Below the pieces are notes generated by a model. That model ran no database searches and was not told where the DNA came from. It saw only the letters and a list, made by a program, of their open reading frames with translations. This document shows positions 8,656 through 32,964 of a stretch of DNA of 64,000 bases, piece by piece (position 1 is the stretch's first letter; the number at the start of each line of letters is the position of its first letter). The DNA is from Nitrospirota bacterium (lineage in GTDB: Bacteria > Nitrospirota > Thermodesulfovibrionia > Thermodesulfovibrionales > UBA6898): positions 1 to 64,000 of the forward strand of contig JAJXTV010000012.1 in assembly GCA_021783515.1 (NCBI GenBank). Reading direction: 5' to 3'. Made by a program: the position numbers and the translations under genes.

Positions 8656-9246
8656 TTACTTCCTATGGCAGGTGAGACAGAGCCTGCTGCCGCTGTTCGA
8701 CTTTACCAAACGTGTGCCGGTGCCGTAAGGGTTGTGGCAGGAAATGCAGGTCACTTTGCCGTCGACAAGCACGATCCTGCTGTCGGTAACACTCTTCAGC
8801 TGCCTGCTCGGGATGTAGAGCACATTGACCATATGGGTATCGACCTCGGCTCTGCCGATGGTTCCGTCGTGGCATCCGAGACACGCGGTGAGGGAAAGGC
8901 GCAGGATATCGGGAGAGTCGCCCATATGGACGGTACCGAGAACACAGGCCATTCCCCGCGTGCAATCGTGGCAGGAACTGCAGAGTTCGGGAGAAGGTCT
9001 CCTGAGACTGCAGGTCCCGGTGATGCAGTCATGGCAGGTGATGCAGCCGACCTTACCGGATGAATCCAGAGGAAGGTCCTTCGGTGAGATAGACGGCTTT
9101 GCCAGCCGGTGTGTCGGAGCGGCCATCGGATGGCAGGAGACGCACCGCGTCGTCAACGAGTAGGGCGAATGGTCGAGTGCCTGCGAGATGCCGGCGAGAC
9201 ACATGATAAGCGGCAGGGAGCAGCAATAAATCCTGAACGTCTTCAT
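8656..9246 (-). CDS. Exported hexahaem c-type cytochrome
   Basis: The protein has 196 residues. An N-terminal signal peptide (hydrophobic residues 8-24, cut near SQA-LDH) leads into six CXXCH haem-attachment motifs: CVSCH, CITCH, CSSCH, CLGCH, CISCH and CLTCH. Several further His residues could act as distal ligands. Two motifs are followed by an extra cysteine (CITCHDC, CSSCHDC). It is predicted to be a periplasmic electron carrier. No enzymatic motif is visible. It is divergent from the aldehyde dehydrogenase cluster. Confidence 0.88.
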   Translation of the reverse strand: MKTFRIYCCSLPLIMCLAGISQALDHSPYSLTTRCVSCHPMAAPTHRLAKPSISPKDLPLDSSGKVGCITCHDCITGTCSLRRPSPELCSSCHDCTRGMACVLGTVHMGDSPDILRLSLTACLGCHDGTIGRAEVDTHMVNVLYIPSRQLKSVTDSRIVLVDGKVTCISCHNPYGTGTRLVKSNSGSRLCLTCHRK

Positions 9247-9328
9247 AACGACCCCCTTTGTTGCTTATTACTTAACACGGAACCCGGCGCCTGTCAATGT
9301 CCATATCCCTGCGGGCTGCCCCGTCTCC

Positions 9329-28292: not shown

Positions 28293-28321
28293 TTGACAAA
28301 ACGGGATGAAATATGTATGGT
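28293..28321 (+). promoter_or_regulatory. Promoter of the multihaem cytochrome operon
   Basis: TTGACA (28293-28298), exactly 17 bp, then TATGGT (28316-28321). The start would be near 28328, about 29 nt before the ATG at 28357, leaving room for the GGGGGGAA ribosome site. Confidence 0.6.
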
Positions 28322-28356
28322 ACAGCGAGATAAATCTTTTCTGGGGGGAAAATACC

Positions 28357-29163
28357 ATGAAGAAGGCTTTGCCGGCGTTATTCCTTTGTCTCGTACTCAT
28401 TGTCGGAGCAGGTCTTGCCGCGGGGCAGGGGGGTATCAAGAAAAAGAGGCCGTTGCCGCCCGATTACGGAAAGGTTGTCATCAGTAATTATTCGGAAAGG
28501 GCGGGGCTTTCTCCGGTTGTCTTCGATCACTGGCTTCACCGCGCTAAATTTACCTGCCGCCTGTGTCACGTCGATATCGGGTTTGCCATGAAGGCCGGGG
28601 GGACCGGCATCCGGGCGGCCGACAACATGCGCGGCTATTACTGCGGCACCTGCCATAACGGAAAGAGGGTCTTCGACGGCATCACGGTATTCCAATCATG
28701 CGCAAAGCAGTCTTCGGGCGATGCCGAAGAGACCTGCGAGAGATGCCATTCGGTCGGGAAAAGAGTGAAGAAAGAGTATGATTTTTACAAAGTTACGGCT
28801 AAGTATCCCCGGGAGCGGTTCGGCAACGGCATAGACTGGCAGAAGGCCGAGGAGGACGGTACGATCAAGCTCGTCGATTATCTCGATGGGATCTCCATCA
28901 AGAGGCCGTCCCTGGCGATTCAGAAAGACTTCGCGCTGAGCCCGAAAGTGCAGGGTATGCCGGACATTATTTTCTCGCATAAGAAGCATACTGCCTGGAA
29001 CGGCTGCGAGGTCTGTCATCCCGAAATATTCGTCGGCGTCAAAAGGGGGACCACGAAGTATTCGATGGTCGAAATATTCGAGGGAAAGTATTGCGGCGTA
29101 TGCCACAGCACCGTTGCCTTTCCGCTGCTTGACTGTCAGAGATGCCATTCAAAGCCGGTATAG
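28357..29163 (+). CDS. Exported hexahaem cytochrome with two c7-type triheme repeats
   Basis: A signal peptide spans residues 1-23. Six CXXCH sites follow: CRLCH, CGTCH, CERCH, CEVCH, CGVCH and CQRCH. Two homologous blocks (LSPVVFDHWLHRAKFTCRLCH and MPDIIFSHKKHTAWNGCEVCH) show that the protein is a duplicated c7-type triheme domain, with distal histidines before each first haem. The ATG at 28357 (268 residues) has the ribosome site; a frame start at 28306 is only an extension. It overlaps the next gene by 22 bp and is probably a periplasmic electron carrier. Confidence 0.9.
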   Translation: MKKALPALFLCLVLIVGAGLAAGQGGIKKKRPLPPDYGKVVISNYSERAGLSPVVFDHWLHRAKFTCRLCHVDIGFAMKAGGTGIRAADNMRGYYCGTCHNGKRVFDGITVFQSCAKQSSGDAEETCERCHSVGKRVKKEYDFYKVTAKYPRERFGNGIDWQKAEEDGTIKLVDYLDGISIKRPSLAIQKDFALSPKVQGMPDIIFSHKKHTAWNGCEVCHPEIFVGVKRGTTKYSMVEIFEGKYCGVCHSTVAFPLLDCQRCHSKPV

Positions 29164-29933
29164 CGCTGCGCTCCCTGCTCCTGGGGGGCCTCTTGCTGCT
29201 TATGCTTCCGTCTGCGGGAGGAGGCGAGGGCAACTGGTTCAATTTTCCTGCCGCGCCCCCGCCCGAGGAATACGGCAATATCCTCATCAACAGGACGTCG
29301 GAGCAAAACGGCATGAAGCCTGCGACCTTTTCCCACTGGATACACAGGCTTAAATTCACCTGCCGGGTATGTCACTTCGAGCTCGAATTCAATATGAAGG
29401 CGAATACCACCGAGATTACGGAAGGGGCGAACCGGGCGGGGAGGTTTTGCGGCACAGCGAGCTGCCACGACGGCAAGGCTGCCTTCGGGCACGAGGCGGG
29501 TAATTGCACCAAGTGCCATAACGGCGACAGGGGATACGGCAAGGAGAGGTTTGCAGAGCTGGCAAAATTTCCGAAGAAAAAACTCGGCAACGGGATAGAC
29601 TGGATGCGGGCGCTGAGACGGCACCTTTTCAAGCCGGTCAATTATTTGACGATCGTGCCTCCCGAAGTGAGTTATAGGAAGACGCTCAAACTGCAGGCGG
29701 AATGGGACCGGATACCTCCCGCCGTTTTTCCTCACAGCGCCCACGTCCGATGGCTGGACTGCAACAACTGCCACCCCGATATTTTTAACATCAAGAAGAA
29801 GGCGACCAAGCATTTTTCGATGGCGCTCAATCTGAAAGGCGATTTTTGCGGGGTCTGCCACTTGAGCGTCGCATTCCCCATGAACGACTGCGAAGAGTGC
29901 CATCCGGACCTTGGCGGAAGGAGCGGCTATTGA
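29142..29933 (+). CDS. Exported hexahaem cytochrome, second c7-type protein
   Basis: The 263 residues begin with a signal peptide (hydrophobic 7-23). Haem motifs are CRVCH, a variant CX4CH (CGTASCH), CTKCH, CNNCH, CGVCH and CEECH. The same two-block layout as the preceding gene (ATFSHWIHRLKFTCRVCH and AVFPHSAHVRWLDCNNCH) points to a gene duplication. The short overlap with its neighbour implies coupled expression. The CX4CH site is a known but uncommon haem-binding variant. Confidence 0.88.
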   Translation: MPFKAGIALRSLLLGGLLLLMLPSAGGGEGNWFNFPAAPPPEEYGNILINRTSEQNGMKPATFSHWIHRLKFTCRVCHFELEFNMKANTTEITEGANRAGRFCGTASCHDGKAAFGHEAGNCTKCHNGDRGYGKERFAELAKFPKKKLGNGIDWMRALRRHLFKPVNYLTIVPPEVSYRKTLKLQAEWDRIPPAVFPHSAHVRWLDCNNCHPDIFNIKKKATKHFSMALNLKGDFCGVCHLSVAFPMNDCEECHPDLGGRSGY

Positions 29934-29947
29934 AGATGAGGAGAAAG

Positions 29948-30265
29948 ATGAAACGTTTACTGGAATTCACGGTTGTCTCGGCCCTGCTGCTTGCTCCGGT
30001 GTTTTTTTCGGCGAACGGGGGTTATCCTGTCGTCCTGCAGGCTTCCGCCGAGGAGGACTGGAGAAAGGCGTTCGACGACATCTGCGCGAAAACGAACGAT
30101 GCCATGAATCTTTCGGACGAGGAACTGAAGACGCTTGTCGGGAAGGCAGAAACGCTCAAGCCTGTCATCGAGAAGCTGGAGGAGTCGGACAGGAAGGTCT
30201 TCCTGCGAAGATTGCAGAAGTGCAGAGACCTGTTCGAGTTCGTGCTTTCTACCAGGAAAAAATGA
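29948..30265 (+). CDS. Small exported helical protein of the cytochrome cluster
   Basis: I know no named family for it. The 105 residues contain a signal peptide or anchor (RLLEFTVVSALLLAPVFFS) and an acidic/basic helical body (EDWRKAFDDICAKTNDAMNLSDEELKTLVGKAE). It has two isolated cysteines and no haem motif. ATG 29948 is favoured because GAGGAG lies 4 bp upstream; ATG 29936 is an alternative. It sits 14 bp after a hexahaem gene and may be an accessory or assembly partner. Confidence 0.6.
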   Translation: MKRLLEFTVVSALLLAPVFFSANGGYPVVLQASAEEDWRKAFDDICAKTNDAMNLSDEELKTLVGKAETLKPVIEKLEESDRKVFLRRLQKCRDLFEFVLSTRKK

Positions 30266-30307
30266 AGGACATGCGCGGGACGGGCGCACTGCTCCATCCG
30301 GGCAATG

Positions 30308-30336
30308 TTGACATATCGGAATGGTTTTGATAAGGT
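30308..30336 (+). promoter_or_regulatory. Candidate promoter of the 15-haem cytochrome gene
   Basis: TTGACA (30308-30313), 17 bp, then TAAGGT (30331-30336). The start would fall about 5 nt before ATG 30348, giving an almost leaderless message if that is the true start. Confidence 0.35.
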
Positions 30337-31541
30337 ATTTTAGTCTTATGGCGACTTTTTTTTCCAAAACATCGCATGTCTTGAGCCTGTCACGGTTGAC
30401 GCTTTCTGTTTTTTTGCTGCCTTTTTTTCTTCTTTGCAGCCCCGGCAGGCCGCTGGCCGGCGAATTGCCCGTCTGCGTCACCTGTCACAAGAAGATCGCC
30501 GAGAAAAAGTACCTCCATCCTGTCATCATGAAAGGCGGGTGTATCGCCTGTCATACCCATCCCCATTCCGCGAAGCACAAGGCGGAGAAGTTTCTTTTTG
30601 CGCAAGGGGTCGAACTGTGCCTGAGCTGCCACGATAAGACAAAGTTCAACAACACGGTGAAGCATCCGCCGGTTGCCGCAGGACAGTGTACCCTCTGCCA
30701 CGAGGTGCATTCGTCCGACAATCCGAAGCTGCTGAAATCGGCGGTCCCGGATTTATGTTTTACCTGTCACGATAAGGCCGCATTTACAGACAAGACGGTC
30801 CATCCGCCGGTGGCGGCGGGGATGTGCACTGCCTGCCATAATCCGCACAGCACCTCGGCGGAGAAGCTGCTCCTGGCAAAGCTGCCGGACCTCTGTTTTA
30901 CCTGTCATGATAAAAGTATGTTTATGGGAAAGAAAGGGGTACATCCCCCTGTCGCGGGGGGGCTCTGCCTGTCCTGTCATCGGCCGCATGCGTCTCCGAA
31001 CGAGAAGCTTCTCGTGAAGACACCTCCTGAATTGTGTTTCGGGTGTCACGACAGTAAGCGGTTTGAAGGCAGGAAGGTGGAGCATGCGCCTGTTGCTGCG
31101 GGTCTTTGCCTGAGTTGTCACGCGCCGCACCAGTCTGACTCTGATAAGTTGCTGGTCCAGCCGATACCCGCCCTCTGCTTCACCTGCCACGAGAAAGATG
31201 AATTTGAGTACGAGAATATCCATCCGCCTGTTGCCGAGGGACTGTGCATGGCATGCCATCGGCCGCATTCGGGCAGCCACAAGAATCTGATCAGGGCAAG
31301 AAGCAAGAATGCCCTGTGTTTAAAATGCCATAAGAAAGTTGCACGGGAGGCGCATGCGGTTGGCGGTATCGGAAACGGCCATCCGCTGGCTACCAAGAGG
31401 GTTGTGCGGATGGGGAAAAAGAGGATAAGGCTTTCTTGTCTTTCTTGCCACTTACCCCATAGCTCCGAGTGGCCCAGGCTTTTCAGATATGAAGCCGAGC
31501 GCCCGCTTGAACTCTGCGGGCATTGCCACAAAGGGAAGTAG
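30321..31541 (+). CDS. Exported 15-haem cytochrome with paired CXXCH repeats
   Basis: Fifteen CXXCH motifs can be counted in 406 residues. Most occur as alternating LCFTCHDK...HPPVA.GLCLSCH.PH units of about 37-40 residues, the paired-CXXCH (doubled haem motif) repeat seen in extracellular electron-transfer cytochromes. A signal peptide ends near PLAGELP. The start is uncertain: ATG 30321 or ATG 30348, neither with a strong ribosome site. Such long haem wires are usually periplasmic or outer-surface conduits for electrons to minerals or partners. No partner porin is visible. Confidence 0.88.
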   Translation: MVLIRYFSLMATFFSKTSHVLSLSRLTLSVFLLPFFLLCSPGRPLAGELPVCVTCHKKIAEKKYLHPVIMKGGCIACHTHPHSAKHKAEKFLFAQGVELCLSCHDKTKFNNTVKHPPVAAGQCTLCHEVHSSDNPKLLKSAVPDLCFTCHDKAAFTDKTVHPPVAAGMCTACHNPHSTSAEKLLLAKLPDLCFTCHDKSMFMGKKGVHPPVAGGLCLSCHRPHASPNEKLLVKTPPELCFGCHDSKRFEGRKVEHAPVAAGLCLSCHAPHQSDSDKLLVQPIPALCFTCHEKDEFEYENIHPPVAEGLCMACHRPHSGSHKNLIRARSKNALCLKCHKKVAREAHAVGGIGNGHPLATKRVVRMGKKRIRLSCLSCHLPHSSEWPRLFRYEAERPLELCGHCHKGK

Positions 31542-31706
31542 CATTTCCTGCCCGGATGCTGTCCGGGTTTTCCTCTGAAGAGAACCTATCTCGCAATACC
31601 ATTTCCTTGTTCGTCATTGCCGTGCAGACCTAGTCTGTCGGCAGGCGGGAATCCACCCTTCGATAAACTCAGGGTGACATTTGTCATGGCGAGCCTGTCG
31701 AACTTG

Positions 31707-31726
31707 ATACCCGCCTCCGCGGGTAT
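31707..31726. repeat. Small intergenic hairpin
   Basis: ATACCCGC and GCGGGTAT pair around CTCC. The flanks (GTCATGGCGAG..., ...GACAGC) resemble short repeats dispersed in many genomes. Only one copy is obvious in this window. Confidence 0.45.
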
Positions 31727-31952
31727 GACAGCTTACTGACGGACATTCAATTTTGAGATGGGATCTCGTCCCCAAGGAAAGCTCTCCTCACTATCACAGC
31801 GGGAGGAGGAGGGGAACGCGAGACAGACACTTATCAGGTCTGCAGGCGCGGCCTGTGGTGTGAATGAACGACAGGTGCCGCTATGCCGATCTGTGTCCCG
31901 TCGTCCGATGCCGCAATACGTCGTCCGTCGTGCCGAAAGGAGGGCTGCGTTT

Positions 31953-31994
31953 ATGTGTGAAATCCTGGCCCTGATGCTGTCCGGGGAGAGGTGA
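31953..31994 (+). CDS. Possible 13-residue peptide with strong ribosome site (doubtful)
   Basis: The frame MCEILALMLSGER is preceded by a perfect AAAGGAGG with a 9-bp spacer. Nothing else supports expression, and there is no promoter or known family. Confidence 0.15.
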   Translation: MCEILALMLSGER

Positions 31995-32058
31995 ACACGA
32001 GATATAGACGTCGGGGCCCAAAAGGTCCGCATGACGGACGAGGAGGCACTGTGAAAGT

Positions 32059-32084
32059 GGGGGCCCGTCGTCCGACAGGCCCCC
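32059..32084. other. GC-rich hairpin downstream of two converging cytochrome genes
   Basis: GGGGGCC pairs with GGCCCCC, and an inner GTCG/CGAC stem with a two-base loop lies within. It could act as a barrier between convergent transcripts, although no T-tract follows. Confidence 0.4.
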
Positions 32085-32100
32085 GGTGAGTTGATGAAGA

Positions 32101-32964
32101 TCAGTGCTTCTTTTTCTTCTTTGTATCTTTCGGTGTTTCCTTCTTTTCTGCCGCCTTCTCAGGCCAGTGGTTCAGGTCATGCGGGCTGTTATGGCATTCC
32201 TCGCATTTCGGGAACTTGGCCATGATGCCGGCGGGATGCGGCACGCCGTGGCAGTCGGTGCACTTCGGTATCATCTTGTGCTTTGCCTGGTGGCAGAATG
32301 CGCAGGCGAAGGTCTTATGTTTCGCGTTGCTGTTCGTCAGCGTATCAAAGACCATCTTGTGGCATGCGCCGCAATCCTTCGAAGGCACGTCCGACCCGTA
32401 GGTGACTACCGTCGGCATATGAGGCTTGTGGCACTTCAGGCATTCGGTCGTCGGCATATCGGCCGCGTGGGGCTTGTGGCACTGCAGGCACTGCGGGATT
32501 TTCCCGTGCACGCTATGACAGGTCGAACAGCCGAGTGCGGAGTGCTTGCTCTTGTGCTCCCTGAGCTGCTTGATCTGGTCGGTGTGGCACGTGAGACACG
32601 GCTCCGTGACGTTCGGCCCGAACGAGATCTTCAGGGGCGTGTGAGGGTTCTTGTGGCAGCCGAGACACCCCTTCAGCTCGAAATGCGGTTTGCCTCCGTG
32701 GCACATGCTGCATTTGGGGATGTTGTCTTTCACTGACGGCGGATGGCCGACATGGCAGCCCGTACACCCGACCCCCTTGTGTTTCCCTCCGTCTGCCTGA
32801 AGATCAGCCGGCGGCTTCGCGTGGCATTTGACGCAGTCGCTGTTTGCCAGGTCCGTCGAACCGGCCGCCTGCGCCGACACGATTGCCGGGGAAAGCAGCA
32901 ATGCGGAAATTCCCAGGACGAAGAAAAACGCGATCAGAATGCTACTCTTTCTTACTCTTTTCAT
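32101..32964 (-). CDS. Exported 12-haem cytochrome
   Basis: The 287-residue protein has a signal peptide (hydrophobic 9-27, cut near VSA-QAA) and twelve CXXCH motifs from CVKCH to CEECH, about one per 20 residues. The tail is lysine-rich (DTKKKKKH). The motif order (GCTGCHVGHPP, GCLGCHKNPH, ECLKCHKPHMP) resembles Nitrospirota/Desulfo-type multihaem proteins. ATG 32964 has GGAGGAGAG directly upstream, and the longer frame to 33060 is spurious. It converges with the 15-haem gene and is predicted to be a periplasmic electron reservoir. Confidence 0.9.
   Translation of the reverse strand: MKRVRKSSILIAFFFVLGISALLLSPAIVSAQAAGSTDLANSDCVKCHAKPPADLQADGGKHKGVGCTGCHVGHPPSVKDNIPKCSMCHGGKPHFELKGCLGCHKNPHTPLKISFGPNVTEPCLTCHTDQIKQLREHKSKHSALGCSTCHSVHGKIPQCLQCHKPHAADMPTTECLKCHKPHMPTVVTYGSDVPSKDCGACHKMVFDTLTNSNAKHKTFACAFCHQAKHKMIPKCTDCHGVPHPAGIMAKFPKCEECHNSPHDLNHWPEKAAEKKETPKDTKKKKKH

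Follow-up and report, generated by a model that had tools for sequence, protein, structure and literature searches.

The 64 kb window analysed here (positions 1 to 64 000 of contig JAJXTV010000012.1, assembly GCA_021783515.1, from a Nitrospirota bacterium) holds four adjacent genes for multihaem cytochromes, termed A, B, C and D, and a small open reading frame (ORF), termed S, between B and C. Judged by sequence, A and B are related to the wire cytochrome GSU1996, from which they differ in having two domains (and six haems) instead of four domains. Both have kept the axial-type Met of that protein in domain 2 and lost it in domain 1, where a loop Cys in A and a loop His in B are the candidate replacements. 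In the best explanation, to which we give an even chance, A, B, S and C would form an exported relay that works with a conduit of the OmcE/Uet type encoded elsewhere in the genome, the domain 1 haem would have been retuned in both A and B, and D would be a separate neighbour. Loci and genomes fetched for comparison bear L and G numbers, respectively, and C13 and C24 are contigs of the source genome.

A and B each matched the TIGR04257 (nanowire_3heme) model in two stretches (106.8 and 104.8 bits, respectively, against a cut-off of 40) and were 38 % identical to each other over 235 aligned positions, in agreement with the initial annotation of this DNA, which had described them as two duplicated hexahaem proteins. 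The best solved relative of both was 3ov0, the structure of GSU1996, a periplasmic dodecahaem 'nanowire' cytochrome of Geobacter sulfurreducens, with which they have tandem c7-type three-haem domains in common. GSU1996 consists of four such trihaem domains in tandem, whereas A and B have two each, with six haem motifs; unlike GSU1996, they also have a conserved GNxIDW linker and the partner S.

According to PMC10138318, one haem in each domain of GSU1996 is His/Met-ligated, the axial ligands named for domains C and D being Met209 and Met287. By residue count in the 3ov0 chain, these are the Met of 'FTM' and of 'ATM', and they share an alignment column with Met237 of A and Met227 of B. Since the GSU1996-type axial Met is kept in A and B, one haem of domain 2 is probably His/Met-ligated in each of them. 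A Met is present in every domain of GSU1996, whereas domain 1 of A and B lacks it, the place being taken by Ala in A and by Glu in B.

Ligand positions were surveyed in 135 non-identical two-domain relatives, comprising 72 A-type and 63 B-type proteins. These represent a convenience set of fetched loci, several of which are the same gene in two records; sequences were excluded if they scored below 140 bits, lacked two complete three-motif domains (because of contig ends or odd motifs) or were identical to another from domain 1 onwards. The domain 2 site was occupied by Met in 132 of the 135 proteins, by Cys in two and by Lys in one. In domain 1, Met stood exactly at the site in only 12 proteins (two A-type and 10 B-type). 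A loop Cys was found in domain 1 of 54 of the 72 A-types, with Ala in the place of Met in 53 of them and Glu in one, and 48 of the 63 B-types possessed a loop His at a fixed place within an F-x-H motif, all 48 with Glu in the place of Met. None of the 12 proteins with Met at the site had either the loop Cys or the F-x-H His. Amongst the remaining 21 proteins, one had Cys exactly at the Met place and, when an offset was allowed (one residue, or two in one protein), five more had Cys at the site and three a shifted Met. As to Cys residues outside the haem motifs, exactly one was present in 51 of the 54 loop-Cys proteins and two in the other three, no such Cys occurred in any of the 27 proteins that had Met, a shifted Met or no candidate, and six of the 48 loop-His B-types had one elsewhere. 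On this comparison, domain 1 would have given up its Met in both proteins: the domain 1 haem of B is probably bis-His, with the loop His as second ligand, and that of A is predicted to be a His/Cys thiolate haem, ligated by Cys115 (residue 132 if numbering begins at the alternative start at position 28306).

The A-types of L059 and L144, which are sister proteins, carry Cys in place of the domain 2 Met as well as the loop Cys of domain 1. The locus L136 (G163 C69) has four A/B-type genes in tandem; a Cys stands close to the Met place in two of the B-types and exactly at it in one A-type.

Several observations weigh against the proposed exchange of ligands. Twelve of the 72 A-types had no Met, loop Cys or F-x-H His, so that the domain 1 haem may manage without a replacement ligand. 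Additional His residues in domain 1, which might serve instead, were present in four of these 12 proteins and in 14 of the 54 loop-Cys A-types, and L067, a Met-bearing B-type, has a His at another loop position, immediately preceding haem motif 3. The distance between the loop Cys and the next haem Cys varied from 8 to 18, and the offset that placed five of the six 'Cys at site' proteins and the three 'shifted Met' proteins in their classes was chosen post hoc. On a tree reconstructed with the trait masked, the ligand states were strongly clustered and required 12 changes, of which two concerned the Cys loop and three the His loop; the tree was a quick one, in which 33 of the 132 inner branches had good support, and it came with a warning about joined long branches. 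Only five independent pairs lay on supported branches, two of them differing in the expected direction and three showing no difference (p 0.5). The pattern of ligand candidates in the sequences is therefore clear, yet it rests on few independent events. AlphaFold2 models of A and B, based on 30 and 35 sequences, had mean predicted local distance difference test (pLDDT) scores of 46.2 and 52.6, and both models were poor.

The small protein S bears on a different role for the loop Cys, which might form a disulfide or serve in docking, with S for instance, in which case the domain 1 haem of A would be five-coordinate or otherwise ligated. Two Cys were invariant in 18 aligned S sequences. A match to S (in one case weak, at 18 bits) followed B in 28 of 42 named loci, some of the others ending too early, and S stood directly after A in genomes where B was inverted or absent (G179, G220, G222, G215 and G223). 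Over 230 genomes of the source class, with thresholds of 1e-30 for the A/B family and 1e-6 for S, 45 had both an A-type gene and S, nine the A-type gene only, three S only and 173 neither. A, B and S are conserved as a set, within which S is apparently a dedicated partner tied more to A than to B, although common descent also connects S with A and the Fisher value obtained takes no account of relatedness. The loop Cys and S occurred together in 29 of 38 A-types (39 rows minus L029, a fragment showing only domain 2), which counts in favour of a contact between the two; the 12 A-types with no replacement ligand also speak for this reading. The other nine comprised five with the Cys and no S in the available DNA (L019, L027, L044, L054 and L060, of which the L027 locus ends inside B), one with a weak S match and no Cys (L069) and three with neither; that five A-types keep the Cys without S is harder to reconcile with a contact. 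So is the appearance of the Cys where the axial Met has become Ala or, once, Glu, as are the other members in which Cys stands in for Met at the site or close to it, and the parallel His swap in B. A structural contact is on balance rather unlikely, and an exchange of the distal ligand is preferred.

S gave no match in Pfam or NCBIfam at E 0.001. Of eight PDB sequences returned for S at E up to 1, the best match was a thyroid autoantigen (E 0.013), which was taken as chance. In L047 (positions 732-1085), S is present as two same-frame pieces split by a stop codon and is perhaps broken or misassembled.

A c haem with Cys/His ligands is found in DsrJ. Cys/His haems also form the active sites of thiosulfate dehydrogenases (PMC9562282, PMC4423706), and according to PMC9562282 their potentials are lower than that of the thiosulfate/tetrathionate couple by several hundred mV. 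As such haems are enzyme active sites and have low potentials, both a redox step in a wire and a reactive site are possible for A. In the latter case A, B and S could make up a periplasmic redox enzyme or sulfur-handling unit, in which a TsdA- or SoxA-like Cys haem acts on thiosulfate or another small substrate and wiring is secondary; PMC12740246 reports sulfate-reduction genes in Thermodesulfovibrionia metagenome-assembled genomes (MAGs) of one lake. However, whilst the ligand pair proposed in A is that of the TsdA and SoxA family, neither A nor B matched any thiosulfate dehydrogenase or SoxA-type Cys/His haem family in Pfam or NCBIfam at E 0.001. Moreover, the neighbouring genes encode cytochromes, with no recognised sulfur genes amongst them, and the His-bearing B-types are equally conserved, so that an enzyme of this kind is improbable. 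The limited literature consulted, available in part, holds no recognised description of an A-B-S set or of a Cys-ligated c7 haem, which is not proof of absence.

Counting haem motifs in stop-free stretches gave six CXXCH for A, five CXXCH and one CX4CH (CGTASCH) for B, 15 CXXCH for C and 12 CXXCH for D. This reproduced the total of 39 haem sites in four adjacent cytochromes (6 + 6 + 15 + 12) given in the initial annotation. When the window was shuffled 100 times by mononucleotide, stop-free stretches never contained more than one CXXCH. Outside the four genes, the whole window contained one stop-free stretch with two or more such motifs, at 8659-9264 on the reverse strand; it is a six-CXXCH ORF with doubled-CXXCH matches over the cut-off and lies far from A to D. 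The previously annotated region began at 28293, the first base of the −35 hexamer of a sigma-70-like promoter, and ended at 32964, the likely ATG of D, and S within it had been missed.

A, B, S and C lie in succession on the forward strand, and the start of B overlaps the end of A by 22 bp, including the stop codon of A (Table 1). D lies on the opposite strand, convergent with C, across a gap of approximately 560 bp. The first four genes would form a single transcription unit, a putative operon that shares the even chance given to the explanation as a whole. The promoter- and terminator-like sites that frame it belong to classes with four members in the region against a shuffle mean of 2.6 (sigma-70-like sites) and 10 against 6.2 (terminator-like sites). 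Judged by eye only, the start of each of the four cytochromes is signal-like, and a clear lipobox or anchor was seen in none of them.

Table 1. Genes, signals and candidate haem ligand positions in the A-B-S-C/D region of the window
Feature	Position	Strand	Remark
Sigma-70-like promoter TTGACA-17-TATGGT ahead of A	28293..28321	+	Consensus match only
A, hexahaem cytochrome with two c7-type (TIGR04257) domains	28357..29160	+	Signal peptide judged by eye
A Ala87, place of the GSU1996 axial Met in domain 1	28615..28617	+	Met lost
A Cys115, lone Cys outside the haem motifs, in the domain 1 loop between motifs 2 and 3	28699..28701	+	Proposed thiolate ligand
A Met237, conserved axial-type Met of domain 2	29065..29067	+	
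B, hexahaem cytochrome with two c7-type domains	29142..29930	+	One CX4CH haem motif
B Glu94, place of the axial Met in domain 1	29421..29423	+	Met lost
B His117, loop His of domain 1	29490..29492	+	Proposed to replace Met
B Met227, conserved axial-type Met of domain 2	29820..29822	+	
S, small ORF with signal-like start and two invariant Cys	29945..30262	+	Start uncertain by a few codons
C, 15-haem doubled-CXXCH cytochrome	30321..31538	+	
Terminator-like hairpin with T tail directly after C	31550..31568	+	Consensus match only
D, 12-haem cytochrome convergent with C	32104..32964	-	Probably a separate unit

The description of C as a 15-haem paired-repeat protein was borne out by matches to TIGR01905 (266.1 bits) and PF09699 (291.6 bits), both over the cut-off and in seven stretches each; C fell below the cut-off of the DmsE family (TIGR03508, 158.9 against 192.2 bits). 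D, with its 12 CXXCH, is the 12-haem protein expected and matched only general cytochrome models in Pfam and NCBIfam; a PDB search with D gave no match at E 0.001. Matches to D were found in 16 of 41 genomes, several of which (such as G002, G004, G011 and G020) have no member of the A/B family. Given that D is encoded on the opposite strand, with a distribution of its own, the four cytochromes are probably not one unit, and the dedicated long-range electron-transfer chain of all four that had been suggested for them was abandoned; the long-range role itself is still plausible, in view of the wire-type c7 domains of A and B.

The A/B family was present in 54 of the 230 genomes of the source class. 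The 42 named records with relatives of B were mostly Nitrospirae, Nitrospirota or Thermodesulfovibrio-type MAGs, and the closest relative of B (74 % identity) was from a Nitrospirae bacterium record. Genes of the family were also found on contigs binned as Hydrogenophilales and Comamonadaceae (L046, L054, L058 and L060), which indicates either transfer or misbinning. Gene order around A and B varied. The order A-B-S-C occurred in the genome of the window (G000), C stood ahead of A in G006, G014, G013 and G029, and C-type genes were therefore beside A/B in at least five genomes; in others, such as G009 amongst the matches listed, A-B-S had no neighbouring C. In G002 and G004, which belong to the same genus (G004 being 66 % complete), C and D occurred together and no A/B-family gene was found. 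Such separations, together with 16 matches to PF14537 in the source genome at E 0.001, would be expected if the four genes were chance neighbours that share only being cytochromes in a cytochrome-rich genome. Given the conservation of A-B-S as a set, the recurrence of C-type genes beside A/B in two orders, and the common strand of A to C between promoter-like and terminator-like sites, a chance neighbourhood is very improbable.

The source genome (3.16 Mb in 48 contigs, with crude longest-ORF calls outside the window) was examined, in stretches around its cytochrome matches and over the whole of one cluster, for the porin and quinol oxidase partners which, in the earlier description, had to lie elsewhere. 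Candidates for both were located. Candidate counterparts of the MtrCAB and Geobacter porin-cytochrome complexes were absent from the window and present in two other places. At 6.3-10.6 kb of C24 (L083), a 406-residue protein over the Porin_4 cut-off adjoins 8-haem and 12-haem proteins, and on C13 (L090) a DmsE-family cytochrome over the cut-off lies beside a 658-residue barrel candidate, which was under the MtrB and GSU2204 cut-offs. A search of the source genome with the MtrB/PioB model PF11854 gave no matches at E 0.001; in scans of single proteins against the same model, the 658-residue ORF of L090 scored 19.1 bits and the 406-residue ORF of L083 scored 18.6 bits (cut-off 23). Candidates for quinol oxidation are three gene sets that combine cytochrome b561 with multihaem proteins (L086, L087 and L094). 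The trio of L083 is adjoined by a 776-residue ORF with nine CXXCH (L083:3347-5674, identical to C24:3347-5674).

A third group, at 134-161 kb of C24 (L182/L183), comprises an OmcE-like protein of 234 residues, two further four-motif proteins, NHL proteins, a peptidyl-prolyl isomerase (PPIase), a 690-residue barrel candidate, a 7-haem protein and a 13-haem paralogue of C. The OmcE-like protein matched 7tfs over near-full length (E 1.4e-39); 7TFS is the structure of OmcE, a tetrahaem nanowire filament of Geobacter (PMC12954529). The 690-residue ORF was 34 % identical over 155 and 126 positions to ORFs in same-type clusters of L059 and L041, respectively, and had no porin family match. Next to this cluster lies an ORF of 2063 residues (L183:10525-16713, C24:154524-160712) with 35 CXXCH and 12 stretches of TIGR01904 (CxxxxCH/CxxCH domain).

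By description, the C24 cluster resembles the undecahaem electron transfer (Uet) complex. As listed for Gallionellaceae in PMC10734462, which credits work on Tenderiales, this complex includes the undecahaem UetJ, the tetrahaem UetA, the trihaem UetDEG, the PPIase UetB, the NHL proteins UetHI and the porin UetC. Common to both are tetrahaem (in C24, OmcE-like) proteins, NHL proteins, a PPIase and a doubled-CXXCH cytochrome, which in the source genome lie at 134-152 kb of C24; the large barrel candidate there may correspond to UetC. The two differ in haem number (11-12 in Uet, against 13 and 15 here), in the trihaem c7 proteins UetDEG, whose place the six-haem, two-domain A and B would take, and in arrangement, A-B-S-C and the C24 cluster being on different contigs.

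Two comparisons link A-B-S-C to this conduit. Firstly, C and the 13-haem paralogue, whose gene is close to the OmcE-like gene, shared 47 % identity across 323 aligned positions. Of 41 genomes searched, 29 had an OmcE-like match, and by hand count at least 20 of these had a C-family match no more than 5 kb away from it (G000, G001, G002, G003, G006, G009, G010, G011, G013, G014, G015, G018, G020, G021, G023, G024, G031, G034, G036 and G037). Secondly, amongst 42 A/B-family loci, L041 (B-type only) and L059 (A-B-S) matched nearly all of the queries from the C24 cluster, so that their A/B-family genes are located within or next to Uet-like clusters. Matches to the tetrahaem, NHL and PPIase queries were obtained in L081, a distant relative from Halomonas, and partial sets in L065 (NHL, tetrahaem and C-type) and L063 (NHL only). 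L080 matched the PPIase query only, and L049, L061 and L062 the C-type query only. Weighing against the link, 33 of the 42 named loci had no Uet-like component or C relative in the available DNA, many of the flanks being short. This would suit A and B as general periplasmic carriers for soluble reductases or oxidases with no connection to the exterior, as would the many gene contexts in which A-B was found and a weak QrcA match of B (23.3 bits against a cut-off of 180). The Uet-like neighbours in L041 and L059 and the C-type neighbours in several genomes are at odds with such a general function, which is unlikely, and a relay leading to the conduit is favoured over it.

In the relay proposed, electrons would pass between inner-membrane, quinone-linked sets of cytochrome b and multihaem proteins and the outer-membrane conduit by way of A, B and the 15-haem C in the presumed periplasm, with S as a dedicated partner. 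A role in extracellular electron transfer is plausible on this genomic context. In a molecular wire, the potential of each haem is determined in part by its distal ligand. The swap in domain 1 would shift the potential of its haem, downwards in A, and may create a step or gate along the wire. A more specific proposal, which is tentative, is that A and B represent a wire-cytochrome family with an exchanged distal ligand (Met, His in B or Cys in A), in which the thiolate haem of A is a low-potential mid-path haem made or guarded by S.

Met, His and Cys at one and the same haem would constitute a natural series, in which the effect of the ligand could be measured directly, and would reveal whether built-in steps or gates exist in wires. 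For these uncultured Nitrospirota, the analysis provides a concrete candidate relay (A-B-S-C), a candidate conduit (the C24 cluster) and a conserved small protein, S. If the proposed ligands are correct, the extracellular electron-transfer chain of these bacteria would contain a built-in redox gate or a sulfur-reactive site.

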